Of a DNA stretch of 64,000 bases, positions 1 through 35,405 are shown one piece after another. Source of the stretch: Candidatus Methanocorpusculum faecipullorum (GTDB lineage Archaea > Halobacteriota > Methanomicrobia > Methanomicrobiales > Methanocorpusculaceae); NCBI GenBank assembly GCA_018883755.1, contig JAHLFR010000035.1, forward strand, positions 1 to 64,000, given 5' to 3'. The stretch's first letter is position 1. Every line of letters begins with the position of its first letter. The translations under genes were made by a program, and so were the position numbers. Under the pieces are notes generated by a model. It searched no databases and was not told the origin of the DNA. It worked only from the letters and a program-made list of their open reading frames with translations.

Positions 1-1316
1 AACATATCCGGAACCGACGGCTCTGTTGCGACGCCTGTCTCTCCCAGGGGTTTGCCGCACATAGCACAAAAACGATCATCCGGATGGTTTCGTGCGCCGC
101 AAACAGTACAATACTTCACGGGCGCGTTTCCTCTCGCAGGCGGTGTCACGGTCGTCACAGAATACTGCTGTGCCGCCGCTGTACTCCCAAACATCTGTGA
201 CTGTTCGGGCGGAATTATCTCCTCAAACTTCCCAATCCACATCTCCCGCAGATCCATTGACGGGAAGATCAGATGCATCTCTTTTTCTCCGTCACGTGAT
301 GCAATTGTCAGACCAATCCCTGGCTCACCTAACTCTCCCGCGATGCGGACTGCTTTTTTCAGTGTATTTACTGCAAACTCCCCTGCAACCGCAAGTATTC
401 CGTTTGTGTTACTCATCAAGACAAACCGTGTATTTGTCAGATATGCTGTGAATGATGCACGTTTCACCCGAATGCCCGGAGAAGAGATGTATGTCTTCTC
501 CCCTGGCTGCAATGTAAGCATCTGTGGAGACTGGTTTACCTGTGTTCCATACCCCATCCCTCCAGCAGGCATACCCGCCCCCGGTGGAATCATTGGAGAG
601 ATCTGGGGAGTTACATGTGCCGGAAGTTTTGCCGATAACTCAACCATCCATGCTTCGCGCGAACCTGCAGAGGGGAACGTTAGGATCATCTGTTTCACTC
701 CTGTCTGTGAGCCGATTGTCAGTGCAATCGACGGTTCCCCCGACTCACTTTCCATCCGTGCTGCATCCATCAGTTCTGCAATTGCAAACTCCCGACCGAT
801 CTGACCGGAAGCATTCTGGAGAATTAAACGAAGATTCGTCAGATACAGTGTATAGTATGTACGTTTGATGCGAATTCCCGCTGTATTCAAAATCTCCATC
901 TCACCCGGTGAATATACTGGAGCCTGCGGTGATGCAGATGATGCTGTCGCGGTTGCGCGCTGGGATGATGGCTGCGCTCCTGAAACCGCAAACGGCTTTT
1001 CCCCCATGGCCTTCTTTATTTGATCTGTCCAGGCCTGCTGTTCTCCTGCTTTGAAGATATCTCCTACCGGGAATGACCACACCATCTCCTTATGGCCATT
1101 TGGAGTTGACAAAACAATTTTCAAACCTGGCTCATTGCTAGGCAGGCTTACTGGATTTGCACTCACAATATTTGTGATTTTAAATTCGCGGGGTGCAGAA
1201 CCGCCTTCAATAATCAGCCGTTCACTTGTAATAGTACCAGTGTACTGCTGTTTTTTCACCATGATTGGCGAAGAATAGTAGCGAACCTCGCCTTCATGCA
1301 TCTCTACGGGAGACAT
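1..1316 (-). CDS. Triple PH-like domain protein with C-terminal zinc ribbon (3' end outside window)
   Basis: The reading frame stays open from the ATG at 1314-1316 to the window edge, so the C-terminus is missing. Three homologous modules of about 95-100 residues follow one another. Each begins with a 'GE-x-hydrophobic' turn, has an 'R/K-x3-T-x-YLTN-x-R' type core (YLTNLRLIL and YLTNTRFVL in copies 2 and 3), and ends in a helix with a conserved Trp (AWTDQI, AWMVEL, MWIGKF). This resembles bacterial/archaeal PH-like folds. Pro/Ala-rich linkers separate the modules. Near the window edge lies a double-knuckle zinc ribbon (YCTVCG, then FCAMCG). The protein is probably cytoplasmic, since no signal peptide or membrane segment is seen. 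Function is unknown; a binding or scaffold role is inferred from the fold only. Confidence 0.85.
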   Translation of the reverse strand, partial: MSPVEMHEGEVRYYSSPIMVKKQQYTGTITSERLIIEGGSAPREFKITNIVSANPVSLPSNEPGLKIVLSTPNGHKEMVWSFPVGDIFKAGEQQAWTDQIKKAMGEKPFAVSGAQPSSQRATATASSASPQAPVYSPGEMEILNTAGIRIKRTYYTLYLTNLRLILQNASGQIGREFAIAELMDAARMESESGEPSIALTIGSQTGVKQMILTFPSAGSREAWMVELSAKLPAHVTPQISPMIPPGAGMPAGGMGYGTQVNQSPQMLTLQPGEKTYISSPGIRVKRASFTAYLTNTRFVLMSNTNGILAVAGEFAVNTLKKAVRIAGELGEPGIGLTIASRDGEKEMHLIFPSMDLREMWIGKFEEIIPPEQSQMFGSTAAAQQYSVTTVTPPARGNAPVKYCTVCGARNHPDDRFCAMCGKPLGETGVATEPSVPDM

Positions 1317-1422
1317 AGTATATTTATTACCTATTAACCTGATGTTATAAAAATCTGTCAAAGAGAAAAAAAACTCCCCTCATACAAGGATTTAATAGGA
1401 TATGCGATGCATTTTTCTCTGT
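1317..1422. promoter_or_regulatory. Divergent promoter region
   Basis: This A/T-rich spacer separates the minus-strand PH-like gene from the plus-strand DUF308 gene. A TATA-like run at 1345-1354 reads well on the minus strand and sits about 30 bases before the ATG at 1316, which suits a leaderless transcript. On the plus strand either the same run or TTTAATA at 1391-1397 could serve the DUF308 gene. The second spacing would make an mRNA starting near the ATG at 1423. Inferred from spacing only. Confidence 0.35.
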
Positions 1423-1977
1423 ATGACTGAAACTGAAACCCCGATTGGCGGGGATATCTTCAAGTCCCTTCTCATTAAAGGCATCATGATGATAATTCTT
1501 GGAGTTATCATGCTGGTATTTACCTTCAGCTCAATCCTTGCACTAGACTATCTGTTTGGTATTGTGCTCATCGTTCTTGGTATCCAGCTTCTTACTTCCG
1601 GGTCTACATTCCTCGGTGAGTACAAACGTACCTGGTGGGTCATTCTTCTTGGTATTCTTGCAATCATCATTGGTATCTTTGCATTCGTGTTCCCGGCAAT
1701 GATGACGCTTTATATTGTGTATCTGATCGCAATTACGTCCTTTATCAGTGGATTTACGGATCTGGCACTTGCCATCTCTGACAAGTGCGGACTTGCAAAC
1801 CGTGCACTTGTTGCAGTATCTGGTGTTCTCGGAATTATTCTTGGTATTCTGTTCATCATCTCCCCATTCGTTGGAGCGTTCGTTATTGTTCAGGTGACAG
1901 GTATCTTCCTGCTTGCATTTGGTATCCTTGCAATTGCGGAGGGATTCCTGGCGAAAAAAGCTGTTCAAACAGCTTAA
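1423..1977 (+). CDS. DUF308 / HdeD-like membrane protein, copy 1
   Basis: A very hydrophobic protein of about 184 residues with roughly six transmembrane segments joined by short loops. Repeated 'GIxxIxxG' stretches and a 'WWVILLGI' segment after the second helix are typical of the DUF308/HdeD family (HdeD is linked to acid resistance in enterobacteria). The ATG at 1423 is preferred over an in-frame ATG at 1402 because the N-terminus then matches the downstream paralogue in length and a TATA-like element lies 26-32 bases upstream. The next gene is a paralogue, so this is a tandem duplication. The family's function in methanogens is unknown. Confidence 0.85.
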   Translation: MTETETPIGGDIFKSLLIKGIMMIILGVIMLVFTFSSILALDYLFGIVLIVLGIQLLTSGSTFLGEYKRTWWVILLGILAIIIGIFAFVFPAMMTLYIVYLIAITSFISGFTDLALAISDKCGLANRALVAVSGVLGIILGILFIISPFVGAFVIVQVTGIFLLAFGILAIAEGFLAKKAVQTA

Positions 1978-2030
1978 CCTCTTTTTATCCCAAACCAAGA
2001 TGATATATCCTCCAAGAGCAAGGGTATTAT

Positions 2031-2600
2031 ATGAACAACATCGTTATTCTTGAGCAGACCCTGCTTCCGGATGCCTGGAAGACACTGCTCCTCAAAGGAA
2101 TCGTTCTGCTGGTGCTTGGCATCTTCTGTTTGGTATTTCCGTTCGCTGCACTGAACGTTGGTGCATATGTTATTGCAATACTTCTTCTGTTTGTATCCAT
2201 TGCTGCACTTTTCTCAGGATTTGCTGCGTTTGGTGAACCAAAAACAACGTGGTGGATGGTACTGCTTGGTATCATAGGTATTATCATTGCACTTGCATCT
2301 TTTGTTCAGCCGGAAGGTATGATCTGGATTGCAACCGTCTTTATTGGTGTAGTCGCCCTTCTCAGCGGGGTAACAGATGTTATTTCTGCCTTCAGCCGCG
2401 GAATGTCTGCAGGTCAGCGGGTACTGATGCTGATTCTTGGAATTATCGGTATTATCGTTGGTATGTTCTTCCTTCTCTTCCCGGAGGAAGGTGCTCCGAT
2501 TCTTACCCTTGTTCTTGGTATCCTTCTTGCTATTGCAGGTGTTGTATCCCTGATTCAGGGCTATGTCTACAAAAAAGAGTATCCTCATCTTGTTGAATAA
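2031..2600 (+). CDS. DUF308 / HdeD-like membrane protein, copy 2
   Basis: A 189-residue integral membrane protein paralogous to the preceding gene. It shares the LL-hydrophobic-KGI entry into the first helix, the TTWWMVLLGI segment and the glycine-rich helical repeats 'GIIGIIxG'. About six transmembrane segments are expected, with a short basic C-terminus (YVYKKEYPH). It lies 53 bases after copy 1 on the same strand; AAGAGCAAGG upstream is a weak ribosome-binding signal. The pair may be co-transcribed. Specific function is unknown. Confidence 0.87.
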   Translation: MNNIVILEQTLLPDAWKTLLLKGIVLLVLGIFCLVFPFAALNVGAYVIAILLLFVSIAALFSGFAAFGEPKTTWWMVLLGIIGIIIALASFVQPEGMIWIATVFIGVVALLSGVTDVISAFSRGMSAGQRVLMLILGIIGIIVGMFFLLFPEEGAPILTLVLGILLAIAGVVSLIQGYVYKKEYPHLVE

Positions 2601-3869: not shown

Positions 3870-5959
3870 ACCTTTCTCATTGTGATAAACATCTGTTGTG
3901 CTCCCAGATTAGATTCGGGATGCTTGGGAGGAAGATATATACCGTCTGATGTAAGCAGATGTCCTTTTGCTGTGTCGTGGATGAAGGCAGGGAGAATTCT
4001 ATTGATGATTGCATTCTTGATTTTGCGATCCAGAACCGGACAGATGATCTCAACACGCCGCTTGAGATTACGTGACATCATATCTGGGCTACCAATGAAT
4101 ACCTGCTCGTCTCCATTGTTTCTGAAATAAAACACTCTGCTGTGTTCCAGGAACCTGCCGACGATTGAGATGACTCGGATGTTTTCGGAAAGGTTTGGGA
4201 CACCTGGGCGGAGCATACAGATACCGCGGACGATCAGATCTATCTTTACTCCTTCGTTCGATGCCTCATACAATGCGTTGATAATCGGTCGGTGAGTTAA
4301 GGAGTTGATCTTAAGAACAATATGCCCGTTTCCTGAGCGTTTCTGATGTTCGATCTCACGCCGTATGAGGTGTTTTAGGGAGTCTTCCATGAAGTCTGGG
4401 CTGACCAACAGATGTTTGTACTCCGGATGCTCTTCATCTCCGTTAAGATATGAAAACAGTGTGGCAACATCATGGCATATTCCTGGATCTGCTGTAAATA
4501 ACGAGATGTCTGAGTAGATCTTTGCTGTTTTTGCGTTGTAGTTACCGGTTGAAATGGTTGCATATCTGACTGTTTTATTTCCCTCTGCACGGGTAACAAG
4601 GCAGCATTTTGCATGTACTTTCAGGCCGGGAACACCATGGATTACAGTGACCCCTCCCTCACTCAGTTTTGTTGCCCACTGGAAGTTTGCCTCTTCGTCG
4701 AAACTCGCTTTCAGTTCAATGACTGCGGTGACATCTTTTCCGTTTTTGGCAGCTGAAATCAGTGCATCAGCAACCGGGGACTCAGGACCGAGGCGGTACA
4801 GTGTCATTTGGATTGTTTTTACTGCGGGATCGGTTGCAGCAGCGTTCAGGAAATTGACAAGTCCGTCAAAGCTGTCATATGGGGTAAAGAGCATATAGTC
4901 TCTGTCGGCAAGATGTTCAAAAATCCTGTTCACGTCAGAAAGTCCGATTGGGAGCGCTGGTGTGTAGGGTTCAAACTTCAGTTCTGGGCGTGAGACTGGG
5001 AATTTTTTCAGATCAGCAAGTCCGAGGGGTGAGGGTACATCATAGACCAGTTCCGGGAGGAGAGACAGGGCATTCACCAGATAACTTGTATACCCAAATG
5101 GAAGCCACTGTTCTGTCTCGAGCCGCGACGGAAGTTTTTTTGCCAATGTTTCCGGTGCTGCTTTGATGGCTGAGATCAGATCATCGGCATCGTCTCCTTT
5201 CAGATTCAGGTCAGAGTCACGGGTGAGACGAACGGGAACAACAGCTCGAAAGGCTTCATCCGGGAGAAAGAGATCGGAGTTTTTCCGCAGTTGTTCTTCA
5301 CGGAACATGTATGAGGTTTTCCGTTTTCCCACACGGACAAATCTTCCGTATGTATCCAGAATTTCCTGAATAGGTACAACGGCAAAACCGCGGTCCGACT
5401 TGGCGAGTAATCCCATTCCTTTCAGGTACTCGTTGTGTTCGATATCCTCAAACCGGTCTCCACGAATAACGGTTACCGGTGTCTGGGCAAGAATCTCTGA
5501 TAGTTCTTTTCTGAGTGTCTTCTTTTCAGACTCACTGCACTTGGTATATTTGGTAAATAGTATGCCGTTTTTCTCCAGTTCCGGTTTGAGTTCCTTTGCC
5601 CAGACCAAGGATATGTTGCGCATCAAAAAGATGGTACGGTCATAAATCATCTCCAGCTGGGTACGGCTGCCAACCACCTCTTCATACTCATCGCTTGGCC
5701 GGGTTGCTCCTCCCTGATATGCTGGTACCCGTACCATGAAGTATTCATCCAGATTGTCGGCAACAATTCCAAGGAAAGCGACCCGCTCCAATAGCGGGTT
5801 TTGGGGATTTCGTGCCTCTGTCAGGATACGTTCATTGAATTTCAGCCAGGACAGTTCCCGGTTGAAGTATCTGCCGCAGTCTTCACACAATGGCTTTTCT
5901 GCTCTGGAGATCTTTTTTTCCTTATTGGACTTTTTTTCCTTTTTGTGTTTTTTGCCCAT
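3860..5959 (-). CDS. ppk1: Polyphosphate kinase 1
   Basis: This 699-residue enzyme reversibly transfers the ATP gamma-phosphate to inorganic polyphosphate. The family signature NRELSWLKFNERIL is present at residues 33-46. The autophosphorylated histidine is H449 (in VHAKC) and the second catalytic histidine H606 (in EHSR). Their spacing of 157 residues equals that of E. coli H435 and H592. A Lys-rich N-terminal extension (residues 1-20) and an unusual CEDCG pair (C25, C28) precede the N domain. It is followed by, and overlaps, the HD-domain gene, forming a two-gene polyphosphate module. Confidence 0.97.
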   Translation of the reverse strand: MGKKHKKEKKSNKEKKISRAEKPLCEDCGRYFNRELSWLKFNERILTEARNPQNPLLERVAFLGIVADNLDEYFMVRVPAYQGGATRPSDEYEEVVGSRTQLEMIYDRTIFLMRNISLVWAKELKPELEKNGILFTKYTKCSESEKKTLRKELSEILAQTPVTVIRGDRFEDIEHNEYLKGMGLLAKSDRGFAVVPIQEILDTYGRFVRVGKRKTSYMFREEQLRKNSDLFLPDEAFRAVVPVRLTRDSDLNLKGDDADDLISAIKAAPETLAKKLPSRLETEQWLPFGYTSYLVNALSLLPELVYDVPSPLGLADLKKFPVSRPELKFEPYTPALPIGLSDVNRIFEHLADRDYMLFTPYDSFDGLVNFLNAAATDPAVKTIQMTLYRLGPESPVADALISAAKNGKDVTAVIELKASFDEEANFQWATKLSEGGVTVIHGVPGLKVHAKCCLVTRAEGNKTVRYATISTGNYNAKTAKIYSDISLFTADPGICHDVATLFSYLNGDEEHPEYKHLLVSPDFMEDSLKHLIRREIEHQKRSGNGHIVLKINSLTHRPIINALYEASNEGVKIDLIVRGICMLRPGVPNLSENIRVISIVGRFLEHSRVFYFRNNGDEQVFIGSPDMMSRNLKRRVEIICPVLDRKIKNAIINRILPAFIHDTAKGHLLTSDGIYLPPKHPESNLGAQQMFITMRKVWW

Positions 5960-6017
5960 GGGATGCCACGCCTGAAATGAAAGAGTATGGTTCGTGGAGA
6001 TACTTAGTTATTTAGTT

Positions 6018-6035
6018 CTATACAGATCTGTATAG
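6018..6035. promoter_or_regulatory. Perfect 18-bp palindrome, likely operator
   Basis: The sequence CTATACAGATCTGTATAG is its own reverse complement across 18 bases with no loop. That favours binding by a symmetric protein dimer over an RNA hairpin. It lies between a TATA-like TTATTTA (6008-6014) and the ATG at 6041, covering the expected transcription start. A bound regulator there would block transcription of the methylthiotransferase gene. Confidence 0.55.
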
Positions 6036-6040
6036 CAGAT

Positions 6041-7297
6041 ATGGATTCAACAGCTCTGACCGCAGCGGCACTCAACCAGCTGAGAAATATCAGATTGTAT
6101 GCGGAAACATACGGTTGCACATATAACTTTGGGGATACGGAAAAGATCATTGAGATTGCCAGATCTCAGGGCTGTACCATTGTAGAAACTGCAGAGGACG
6201 CTGATGCTGTTTTAATCAACACCTGTATTGTGGTAACCAGAACAGAGGAACACATGTATGAACGCATGCGTTTGTATGCTGATAAAATTCTGGTTGTGAC
6301 CGGTTGTCTTCCAGGGCTTTCAATAGACCGTGTGTTGTCGGCACATCCGGATGCGTATATTATTGATCCGGATCTGATTCACTCCTGTTACCGGGAGGTT
6401 GGGACGGTACATGCTGGAGATCATGCAGTTCTACAGATCGCAAAGGGGTGTAATGGCCACTGTACCTACTGCATTACCCGGCTTGCCCGGGGAAAGCTGG
6501 TGAGCTTTCCTCTTGAGGACATTGTGGCTCAGGCGCGTGCGTTTGTGGATGCAGGCGCGACCGAGATCCAGCTGACAGCACAGGATGTTAGTTCTTGGGG
6601 GATGGATCGTGATGATGGTCTTCGTCTACCGGATCTTCTGCGTGCTCTAATAAAAATCCCAGGTGAGTACCGTATCCGTATAGGGATGGCAAATCCTGAC
6701 ACACTGTTGCCAATTCTTGATGATTTTCTGGATGCAATTGCTGATCCAAAGATCTTTTTGTTCTTGCATGTGCCCGTCCAGTCAGGGTCGGATGCGGTAC
6801 TCCGGGCAATGGGGAGGAGGTACACGGCGGCACAGTATGAAGAGATCTGCCGCCGTGCCCGCGAACGATACCCTGATATCCGCATATCAACGGATTACAT
6901 TGCAGGGTTCTGTGGTGAGACCGCAGAGGACGCGGCAGCATCGGTTACACAGATTCTAGCTACCCGTCCCGGAAAGGTAAACATAACAAGGTTTTCTATG
7001 CGCCCAGGTACTCCTGCAGCAAAGATGAAAAATCTCCCTGAACCTGTTAAAAAGGAGCGTTCGCGAGCCTTGACGAATGCTGCAAATGTGGTGTATGATG
7101 CAAACAATGAGGAGTGGATTGGAAAAACAGTGGATGCGGTTGTGACCGAGGTTGTACGTGCCGGAAGTGTTACGGCACGCGACAGGACATATCAGAATAT
7201 TGTGATATTATCGGAGATTCCCATAGGTACTCGGATACGGGTAACGATCACTAGTCATCGTCGGCATTATCTTGTTGGCATGGTGGCGTTGGAGTAA
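6041..7297 (+). CDS. tRNA-t6A37 methylthiotransferase (MtaB/CDKAL1 type, radical SAM)
   Basis: It inserts a methylthio group on N6-threonylcarbamoyladenosine at tRNA position 37. Three cysteines of the UPF0004 domain (C26, C62, C89) would hold one 4Fe-4S cluster. The radical SAM motif CNGHCTYC (C137, C141, C144) holds the second. A C-terminal TRAM domain (about 355-418) would bind tRNA. Length (418) suits the archaeal/eukaryal e-MtaB branch. The gene is monocistronic with a palindrome just before its ATG, and its 3' end overlaps the convergent downstream gene by 31 bases. Confidence 0.93.
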   Translation: MDSTALTAAALNQLRNIRLYAETYGCTYNFGDTEKIIEIARSQGCTIVETAEDADAVLINTCIVVTRTEEHMYERMRLYADKILVVTGCLPGLSIDRVLSAHPDAYIIDPDLIHSCYREVGTVHAGDHAVLQIAKGCNGHCTYCITRLARGKLVSFPLEDIVAQARAFVDAGATEIQLTAQDVSSWGMDRDDGLRLPDLLRALIKIPGEYRIRIGMANPDTLLPILDDFLDAIADPKIFLFLHVPVQSGSDAVLRAMGRRYTAAQYEEICRRARERYPDIRISTDYIAGFCGETAEDAAASVTQILATRPGKVNITRFSMRPGTPAAKMKNLPEPVKKERSRALTNAANVVYDANNEEWIGKTVDAVVTEVVRAGSVTARDRTYQNIVILSEIPIGTRIRVTITSHRRHYLVGMVALE

Positions 7298-7695
7298 TGC
7301 ATCTCTTCCATCTCATCAAGGTAGGGGAGGAGTGCTTTCAGGTAGGTGCGGGGACCGACAGCTGTCTGTATCTCTCCGCTCTCTAAAATTTCAGCGTTTA
7401 GAGGTTCTGCGGCAAACATTTCTTCCACCCGTACGTTTGAACCTGCTATCTGGCGCATCTGTTTCTGCATGGTCTTGAACCACTCTTCAATTTCCATTAC
7501 TGGCCGAAAGTCGGGGTCAACCAACCGGTACTTTGCAAGATCTGCAGCAAGATCTGATGTCCGTGCGATCTCCTCATCCATATACAGATAAACATTGATG
7601 CGTTCTGTTTGGCGGAGCTCGCGAAGTACAAGTACATCAACGCGTTCGCCGGTTTTGGGAAGCTCTGTCATGGTGATGTACTTTTCCTCAGGCAA
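7267..7695 (-). CDS. Conserved hypothetical protein, 142 aa
   Basis: Not recognised. The predicted protein is acidic and soluble, with an N-terminal beta-rich part (RVDVLVLRELRQTERINVYLYMD), a helical middle (EEWFKTMQKQMRQ) and a Pro/Leu C-terminal helix. No cysteines, metal motif or signal peptide are present. An in-frame ATG at 7671 (MTELPK) is an alternative, shorter start. The gene converges with the methylthiotransferase gene and overlaps its 3' end by 31 bases. It is accepted as real because the frame is clean and no competing gene occupies 7298-7695. Confidence 0.65.
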   Translation of the reverse strand: MPEEKYITMTELPKTGERVDVLVLRELRQTERINVYLYMDEEIARTSDLAADLAKYRLVDPDFRPVMEIEEWFKTMQKQMRQIAGSNVRVEEMFAAEPLNAEILESGEIQTAVGPRTYLKALLPYLDEMEEMHYSNATMPTR

Positions 7696-32065: not shown

Positions 32066-33283
32066 TTAGAAGGTCTTTAATTTGCCTTCGATAACAAGGC
32101 GGGTGATGTCCGTGATGTTTTCGAGACGGTGGTTGACGATCTCCTCAACTTCGGACTGGTACTCTTTGAAGTCATAGCCGCGTTTGGTGATGCACTGCAC
32201 ACTTGCAACCAGCGGGTAGTCAATCGGGTGGCCGATCTGGGAAAGAAGTCTGACATACATCTCTTCAATTCCGTCAACCTTCTGGCAGGCTTCACGTGCG
32301 ATCTCGGTTGAGAGCAGGTTGTAGATCTTACCGATGTGGTTGATTGGGTTCTTTCCGGAGGTTGCTTCCATGGACATCGGTCTGTTCGGCGTGATAAGAC
32401 CGTTGCAGCGGTTACCGCGTCCAACAGATCCGTCGTCACCCATCTCTGCGGATGTTCCGTTGACGGTGAGGAAGACAGAGGTGGTCTTCTTTCTGATGAT
32501 ATCAGCGGTGTTGATCTCAACTTTGACTTTGCGATCGGTGTACTTCTTGGCGACCTTGGTGAAGGACTCCTCCATCTTCTCTTTCATCTCGACATAGTCG
32601 GTGATGTCAGAGCAGTAGCGGTCAACCATTGCGGCTGCAACGGTGATGGTGATCGTATTGATCTCACGCAGTCCCATGAGTTTGATATCGTATCCGAGCA
32701 TCGGGTTTTTGGGGCGGAACTCGTTTGCGATGTAGTCATCGAGGCCAAGGATGATCTGTTCAACCTGGGAGAAGGGTGCGTGACCAACACCAAATGAGGT
32801 ATCGTTCGCCCGCGGGACGGTGGTGTGGCCCTTCTTGGTGTTGAAGACATCACAGAGATCGGTGGAGCCGGAACCCATGCGGCAGTCGACGATGATGTCG
32901 CGATCCATGTCAAAGGTAGGAATGGTGGTCTTCAGATATTCCCGTGCAGCATTGACTGCAATTGCATCGGTTGCAAACACTTTGTCACCGAACTTGCGGG
33001 TTGCACGACCGGTCAGGAGGAAGTAGATCGGTTTGATGATCTTTCCACCGCCGAATGCCGGAGCGGACTCACCTGCAACGACCTCGCCCTGATCGGTGTT
33101 GTGGTGGAGAACTCCTCCGTCACACTCAGCCATATATTCCTTGCAAAGTGCGCGGGAAACTGCTTCTGCAACACCGTCAGCAAGGCTGTCCGGGTGGCCG
33201 ATACATTTACGCTCGACAAGCTCGACTTTCTGTTTTTCGATAGGAGTCTGAGAGAGATGCTTAACGCTGATATTTCTCTTCAC
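32066..33283 (-). CDS. metK: S-adenosylmethionine synthetase, archaeal type
   Basis: A 405-residue archaeal MAT that makes AdoMet from methionine and ATP. Its blocks differ from bacterial Met[47 protein letters not shown] and [21 protein letters not shown] at 33283 is taken as start ([10 protein letters not shown]) because archaeal homologues begin there and GAGAAGTGAT lies 6 bases upstream as a Shine-Dalgarno match. TTG at 33301 is the alternative. TATA-like TTTATAC lies about 39 bases upstream. It leads the metK-hisG-hisA-hisB cluster. Confidence 0.95.
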
Positions 33284-33983: not shown

Positions 33984-34175
33984 GGTCTTTCAGATCTCCT
34001 GCCGGAACGTTTCATTCCGGTGTTGGATATTACCATATTCTTCACGCGAGTGTATTAACCTAAGGGTGGTGGCAAGGTTAGATCTTTTATGGTTCTTTTG
34101 TTTCAAGATGTAAGATGGATCTGATATTCCGAGGATAATGTTTTGAAAAAAAGAAACGGTTGTAATCAAACCGTT

Positions 34176-35405
34176 TTACTGCTGCATCGTGATGGCAGTG
34201 ATGCCTGCATCTTTGAGTGCGGCCTTTAACTGTACATCCTGAATTGATCCAAGCTGCGGGTCGGCAATCACAACGTTGTCGCCTGCCGCACTGCGGTCGG
34301 TAACCCACTGTACAAAGCTTTCCCAGTCATTTGCCGGGGAGTTCATGCTTGCCACGAGTCCGGATCCTTCAAGCTGAATCGGAGCGAGGATCTTTAAGCT
34401 GACAGAACCAGTGCTCTTATCGATTGCACTGATATAAGGCGGTGTTCCCGCAACAGCGTACTGGATGGTGTTCTGTGAAAGCAGGGTCATCAGCTGTGGT
34501 CCGCCGGAACCTTCTACAAAGGTGACGTCAGCAATCTTCTCACCGTTGATGAACAGTTCGGCTTCGGACACCTTTCCGGTACTTTCCGTGGTCGGTTTGA
34601 GGTAGGAGTTGTAGGTGTCTTTGAAGTACTGCCAGTCTTTCAACAGAACAAACAGTGGTGCATCGTGATCGCTTGGGAGGTAGCCGATCGAGATTGTGTT
34701 CTCTACCGGTGCGGGAGTGTTGAGGGTGCCTGCTTCAATCTGTGCAGTTGCTGCTTCGTACGGACCGAAGTCATAGAGTAGCTCGTTGGACTCCTCTGCG
34801 GTAGTGGATGCAAGTTTTCCGGTGATCAGATTCAGCTCACGCTGGGACTTGATGAACTCCTCGTTGCTTGCAATCCATGCATCAGTAACGGTGCTTGAGA
34901 ACATGATCGTTGGGATCGAGGCATTCATGGCATCGACTGAGTTAACCGTGATGTTACCGTACACCATGTTCTGTTTGGAGAACAGCCAGTCAGCCGTCAG
35001 TTCTGCGGCTTTGTCGGGATAGTCATTGATGTACTTATCACCAAGGATCATCAGAGCAACAATGCTGGTTGTGAGATCCGTGTTCTTCAGTGCTTCGGAG
35101 TTTGCGCCAATTGCACAGCAGGTGTGTTCTTTCCACATGCCTTCCGGAGGAAGATCCTGGCTGTAGGCTACAACCTTTCCGACATCCCCTTCAACACCGA
35201 CAGCTACGAACGGCTGCCAAATGATGTATCCGTCAACTTGTCCTGTTGCAAGAAGTCCCGGCATGGTGCCTGCTCCGGTGTAGAGAATCTCTACGGTCGG
35301 AGTCTTATCGGAGTCTGCTGGATCCGATACGCATCCGGCAGCAAAAACCAGTGCGACACACACGACAAGAAGACCTGCAACTGAGAGCAGATGCTTTTTG
35401 TGCAT
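34176..35405 (-). CDS. ABC-type substrate-binding lipoprotein with swapped (circularly permuted) lobes
   Basis: 409 residues. A lipoprotein signal has the lipobox ending at C25 (FAAGC). Residues 36-215 match the second half of NMT1/SsuA-type binding proteins (GQVDGYIIWQPF, HTCCAIGA, DFGPYEAA). Residues 237-409 match the first half (ISIGYLPSDHDAPLF, GGPQLMTLL, AGTPPYISAID, GSIQDVQLKAAL). The natural order is thus reversed, with a Pro-rich linker (TLNTPAPVEN) joining them. Such proteins bind sulfonates, nitrate, taurine or thiamine precursors; the ligand here is unknown. No permease or ATPase gene is adjacent, so it must pair with a transporter elsewhere, if any. Confidence 0.85.
   Translation of the reverse strand: MHKKHLLSVAGLLVVCVALVFAAGCVSDPADSDKTPTVEILYTGAGTMPGLLATGQVDGYIIWQPFVAVGVEGDVGKVVAYSQDLPPEGMWKEHTCCAIGANSEALKNTDLTTSIVALMILGDKYINDYPDKAAELTADWLFSKQNMVYGNITVNSVDAMNASIPTIMFSSTVTDAWIASNEEFIKSQRELNLITGKLASTTAEESNELLYDFGPYEAATAQIEAGTLNTPAPVENTISIGYLPSDHDAPLFVLLKDWQYFKDTYNSYLKPTTESTGKVSEAELFINGEKIADVTFVEGSGGPQLMTLLSQNTIQYAVAGTPPYISAIDKSTGSVSLKILAPIQLEGSGLVASMNSPANDWESFVQWVTDRSAAGDNVVIADPQLGSIQDVQLKAALKDAGITAITMQQ

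Follow-up and report, generated by a model that had tools for sequence, protein, structure and literature searches.

The minus-strand gene at positions 34176 to 35405 of the window (the whole 64,000-nucleotide stretch of DNA analysed here) raises the question of whether a substrate-binding protein (SBP) of an ABC importer has had its chain rearranged, and, if so, where the chain was cut, how often such an event has occurred and which transporter the protein serves. The open reading frame was accepted as a real gene on account of its ATG start, its signal peptide with lipobox and the presence of full-length orthologs in three named genomes, one of them that of Methanocorpusculum petauri (89, 81 and 89% identity). 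Its features are as follows.

34176..35405, minus strand: gene for a circularly permuted SsuA/NMT1_2-type substrate-binding lipoprotein (409 aa, ATG start)
35331..35405, minus strand: signal peptide and lipobox, residues 1-25 (FAAGC25), read from the sequence
34737..35300, minus strand: residues 36-223, equivalent to the C-terminal half of canonical SsuA-type proteins (canonical-only C-half profile and canonical alignment)
35115..35126, minus strand: H-T-C-C, residues 94-97, candidate ligand-site signature kept in permuted and canonical relatives
34698..34736, minus strand: residues 224-236, linker that joins the former C- and N-termini, flanked by the two half-profile matches
34179..34697, minus strand: residues 237-409, equivalent to the N-terminal half of canonical proteins, now C-terminal (canonical-only N-half profile)
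34236..34250, minus strand: GSIQD, residues 386-390, start of the lobe-2 helix just before the new C-terminus (conservation table)
34154..34176, minus strand: terminator-like hairpin and T run directly 3′ of the stop codon (pattern scan)

Order of the halves and position of the cut

The window protein scored 63.3 bits against the Pfam profile NMT1_2 (PF13379; cut-off 24.7 bits), which it matched twice and in reversed order: residues 36-138 aligned with profile positions 152-248 and the region 34194-34529 with positions 36-150, either stretch alone passing the cut-off. The halves, searched separately as the first-pass annotation had suggested, thus correspond to complementary parts of a single profile. 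To avoid circularity, half-profiles were then made from 26 canonical relatives only. Positions 2-161 of the 163 in the C-half profile matched residues 38-219 (66.5 bits), and positions 1-30 and 32-130 of the 133 in the N-half profile matched residues 238-403 (52.0 bits in all), against a best score of 9.2 bits among 2000 shuffles; a profile-profile comparison also returned two matches in swapped order, with E values of 2.8e-30 and 5.4e-19. These matches bear out the first-pass annotation, which had recognised the second half of the binding-protein family directly after the lipobox, had set the start of the first half correctly at residue 237, and had noted near the protein end the GSIQDVQLKAAL block, found here at residues 386-397. 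The protein fell far short of the cut-off of the SsuA_fam model TIGR01728 (37.6 versus 163.5 bits), and rotating its sequence raised this score to 46.5 bits; a control rotation with the same junction reached 45.1 bits, making rotation a weak test, and the half-profile test was preferred for this reason.

The whole canonical protein is accounted for, with nothing missing. DFGPYEAATAQ at residues 212-222 is the counterpart of the canonical C-terminus DLSFYEKATATA, and SIGYLPSDHD at residues 239-248 is the counterpart of canonical N-termini (NFGYQPSTHQ), in a segment, now C-terminal, that also holds GSIQDVQLKAALKDAGI; the linker at residues 224-236 is variable across the alignment of relatives. 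An assembly error was rejected because one and the same cut is found in 55 permuted open reading frames from many genera, single-contig genomes among them. With independent profiles, more than 50 permuted relatives and clear canonical relatives in agreement, the circular permutation proposed by the first-pass annotation is confirmed at the level of sequence. An AlphaFold2 model computed from an input of four near-identical sequences only had a pLDDT of 33, and searches of the PDB with permuted profiles returned only canonical proteins, each match being confined to a single half, and thus no solved structure of a permuted homologue.

The two termini of X. citri SsuA both belong to domain I, and its hinges are found at P107-T109 and G204-G211 (PMC3839906). 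Residues 41-74 of the window protein align with chain positions 163-197 of PDB 3E4R, and its last stretch ends just before these, which, together with the hinge positions, places the predicted cut inside domain II (lobe 2), between the helix that follows GSIQD and the subsequent strand, on the assumption that the chain index approximates the numbering in PMC3839906. The description of the protein as two lobes in reversed order did not hold, as on this mapping the cut falls inside lobe 2 and not between the lobes. The new termini would lie inside lobe 2, while the old ones, which sit together in lobe 1 of SsuA, would be joined by the short linker. G24 and C25 of the lipobox were invariant in all 12 relatives aligned, and the N-terminus reads as an archaeal lipoprotein signal, predicted to supply both export and a lipid anchor. 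Given the position of the new termini, this anchor would by homology hang from lobe 2 rather than lobe 1. Conservation over all rows was 0.87, 0.89 and 0.87 for H94, C96 and C97 of the candidate ligand-site signature, and 0.99 and 0.80 for Q389 and D390 of GSIQD.

Candidate ligand of the importer

Almost all permuted relatives carry the SBP gene in an operon with a permease and an ATPase gene. The gene product would serve an SsuABC-type ABC importer as its extracellular, lipid-anchored binding protein. It most likely retains the two-lobe clam fold and binds a small sulfonate, with coenzyme M (CoM) as the leading candidate. A role in the uptake of CoM or another sulfonate is suggested both by operons that adjoin CoM biosynthesis genes and by the canonical methanogen system: ssuABC is named in reviews as the transporter of CoM in almost all methanogens (PMC10658910), and ssuA and ssuC rise under CoM starvation in M. 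acetivorans (PMC12068725). At locus L109, genes for cysteate synthase and a fused sulfopyruvate decarboxylase lie directly upstream of the permuted SBP operon, and at L119 a sulfopyruvate decarboxylase gene and a 2-phosphosulfolactate phosphatase homologue lie beside it. From this context, CoM is predicted to be the most likely ligand in methanogens. L109 also encodes, at 4950-5825(+), downstream of its two biosynthesis genes and immediately before the permuted SBP gene, an NMT1_2-like protein of canonical order that has no signal peptide.

It is possible, if less probable, that the protein is permuted as described and binds taurine, isethionate, nitrate or bicarbonate instead. Several ligands are found within the NMT1_2/SsuA family, and among the permuted loci cysteate synthase or comDE genes adjoin the operon only at L109 and L119. 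The A. fulgidus-like genome G248 has a permuted SBP and lacks both CoM genes, so that the ligand may differ there and could be another sulfonate. These points are set against an H-x-C-C motif that is common to permuted and canonical members, canonical methanogen homologues included, a link to CoM genes that recurs in two distant lineages, and the description of methanogen ssuABC as CoM-specific (PMC12068725). Under the favoured assignment to CoM, uptake by the window organism would be supplementary and not strictly needed, since its genome encodes enzymes for CoM precursors (cysteate synthase and the sulfopyruvate decarboxylase comDE, both on contig C6).

Distribution, origin and the split operon

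Permuted orthologs with the same cut were found in more than 50 genomes, comprising most Methanomicrobiales families and Archaeoglobi-like lineages, all of them sharing one site; the permutation is ancient and shared by many relatives, not specific to the window gene. Families f1, f3, f4 and f6, all of the same order, have full-length permuted relatives of 40-90% identity, and f2 and f6 have a divergent permuted subfamily of about 30% identity. A further permuted group, compact at about 340 aa, is present in f9, f26 and f31; with G248 among them, we take these to be Archaeoglobi and their neighbours. Family f10 has one permuted member, at L119, and canonical relatives are found in f2, f5, f8, f10, f14 and others. 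In most proteins of the divergent subfamily (L047-L054 and L059-L061) the N-terminus looks like a plain membrane segment with no clear lipobox cysteine. At L119 the permease is in two pieces, 1001-1363(-) and 1763-2521(-), possibly owing to a frameshift or an assembly fault, and at the Archaeoglobus-like loci L105, L106 and L114 the permuted operon is immediately followed by genes that resemble a TRAP-type transporter and a TAXI-like binding protein. No relative turned up when viral contigs were scanned with a 12-row profile, and when plasmids were searched with the A. fulgidus-like protein the matches were joined from two pieces and covered at most 86% of the query.

The permuted rows formed two separate groups in the free SBP tree. 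When they were forced into one clade the likelihood lay 8.5 log units above that of the free tree (AU p 0.744), and the tree test does not reject a single permuted clade. A single origin of the permutation is most likely, either before the Methanomicrobiales and Archaeoglobi-like copies parted or before a transfer between them. That the same cut was instead made twice, independently in these two groups, seems unlikely: the groups remain unjoined in the free SBP and transporter trees, and independent permutation does occur in this SBP family (locus L117, below), but the position of the cut is equal within a few residues in both groups and the one-clade tree is the likelier of the two.

Within the Methanomicrobiales both permuted and canonical operons occupy one chromosomal locus, flanked by gatE-gatD-argH plus a helix-turn-helix gene and, on the opposite side, by L10e-fumA-fumB, the canonical forms sitting there in sister families. 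Within genus g16 the SBP operon at this locus is permuted in L041 and L071 and canonical in L160 and L162. The divergently placed helix-turn-helix protein (L041:4294-4824(-) and homologues), a likely regulator, is found beside canonical and permuted operons in distant archaea. Permutation in place at the argH/L10e locus was considered and dropped, because the permease-ATPase tree parts permuted and Methanocellaceae operons from canonical Methanomicrobiales and Methanosarcinales operons (SH-aLRT 96). Replacement of the operon in place fits this separation better and would be the simplest reading. As to mechanism, the route inferred is a tandem duplication, after which the copies fused in frame and the outer halves were lost. 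The tandem duplication and loss invoked by the first-pass annotation are thus a putative route that fits the evidence (a tandem gene pair at L067 and linker remnants at L117). At L067, from the same genus, two permuted SBP genes lie in tandem at 4974-6197(-) and 6335-7543(-), before the permease and ATPase genes, which indicates that the SBP locus does duplicate in this manner.

The observation that no transporter genes flank the SBP gene holds inside the window; the partner genes are found at another place in the genome. M. labreanum (G054, L164) has mobA-panE next to an SBP-permease-ATPase-L10e cluster. In the window the SBP gene has kept mobA-panE as neighbours but is followed by ferritin-like and AdoMet synthetase genes, while permease-ATPase-L10e-fumA-fumB lie on contig C33 from position 32624 (L146), with the permease and ATPase genes (G000:C33:32624-34162) intact and confirmed by Pfam. 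The operon is split in the same way in the M. petauri-like genome G024 (L165). As relatives including M. labreanum have the full operon and the window genome retains the permease and ATPase on C33, the missing transporter reflects a local rearrangement in the window lineage; a cognate permease and ATPase are thus found adjacent to the SBP in nearly all relatives and on C33 in the genome itself. The hairpin after the stop codon would suit transcription of the gene on its own in this lineage and is no evidence of function.

It is quite unlikely that the SBP of the window lineage no longer takes part in import and has become a stand-alone receptor, or is decaying, with the permease and ATPase engaged otherwise. 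The split operon and the terminator-like hairpin 3′ of the SBP gene would suit such a fate, and no further NMT1_2 protein was found in the window genome, which is only about 80% complete. The SBP gene is nevertheless intact and 81-90% identical in species with or near the same arrangement, and the permease and ATPase are intact with no replacement SBP found, although at this completeness one may have been missed. We therefore retain as the probable reading that of a permuted, lipid-anchored SBP of an SsuABC-type importer, a two-lobe clam for a sulfonate with CoM as first candidate, whose partners are encoded elsewhere in the genome. The bound sulfonate would be passed to the C33 permease and ATPase, the partner genes being present and the ligand and its delivery predicted.

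A probable second permutation and its implications

The N-half of the window protein is nearest to that of Methanocellaceae SsuA-like proteins (L118, at 41% identity, L122 and L163), which are canonical in order with the exception of L117. At L117:5371-6453(+), in a Methanocellaceae MAG (G184:C93), the SBP gene is in its usual place before the permease and ATPase genes and its product is cut elsewhere, opening after the signal peptide with GIKTIADLKGKKIALPSVGSIQD and closing with VHTNGSGLFYRKGLTP. The congener L122 (G157, a single contig) has the canonical order at the same locus, and its residues 51-143 and 144-346 are swapped in L117 with none lost. The L117 linker, ASGTPKVKDTV, resembles PTGTPGVKDLV, the stretch before the canonical N-terminus. 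On the basis of one MAG contig, this pattern is the outcome expected of tandem duplication, in-frame fusion and trimming, and the same contig points to a second, independent and recent permutation at another site, near the first hinge. A fusion of half-proteins from two different binding-protein families that converged on a two-lobe protein, the outcome that the first-pass annotation had named as fatal to its proposal, was rejected at the sequence level and is very improbable indeed: a similar doubt has been voiced over the permuted part of TpMglB-2 (PMC4990184), and the nearest canonical rows differ between the N-half and C-half of the window protein, but both halves match complementary parts of one Pfam and one canonical profile with nearly all of it covered once, and L117 retains every residue of its canonical congener.

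On balance we favour the view that this sulfonate/CoM importer family has been permuted at least twice, by an ancient lobe-2 cut in Methanomicrobiales and Archaeoglobi and a recent first-hinge cut in one Methanocellaceae genome, and that permuted and canonical operons interchange at one locus. A literature search found no description of a permuted SsuA/NMT1-type protein. The closest precedent was a sugar-binding protein of Treponema pallidum, TpMglB-2 (Tp0684; Type Ic/Cluster Bc), a type I protein that is likewise permuted and in which ligand binding and closure survive (PMC4990184). Like TpMglB-2, the window protein is a natural permutation, conserved in its clade, of a lipid-anchored ABC-importer binding protein, with a complete domain in rotated order. 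In contrast to the type I (MglB, sugar) fold, N-lobe cut and poorly similar permuted part of TpMglB-2, it is an archaeal SsuA/NMT1_2 protein, type II by homology, with a lobe-2 cut and two clearly homologous halves, and its family has a second, differently placed permutation; it thus has neither the type I/cluster B fold nor the TpMglB-2 cut. With canonical SsuA/TauA proteins (PDB 3E4R, 2X26 and 6SSY) and methanogen SsuABC it shares the NMT1_2 family, the transporter architecture and conserved motifs, differing in its swapped halves, some 25 extra residues in the N-half and its SsuA_fam score far under the cut-off.

Natural permutations of binding proteins are rare, TpMglB-2 being the one structural case found in the literature search. 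The presence of canonical and permuted forms at one locus, even within one genus, together with a recent second case, makes the origin of such permutations testable, and the family also makes it testable whether the position of the anchor or the order of the chain matters to an ABC importer. Retention of the swap across many archaea and the separate second swap suggest that this transporter component tolerates rewiring. If two permutations did occur, the family would be a natural experiment in which neither permease docking nor ligand closure depends on the order of the chain or on which lobe bears the anchor. The methanogen sulfonate/CoM importer is undercounted when annotation relies on profiles, a matter that bears on bromoethanesulfonate sensitivity.
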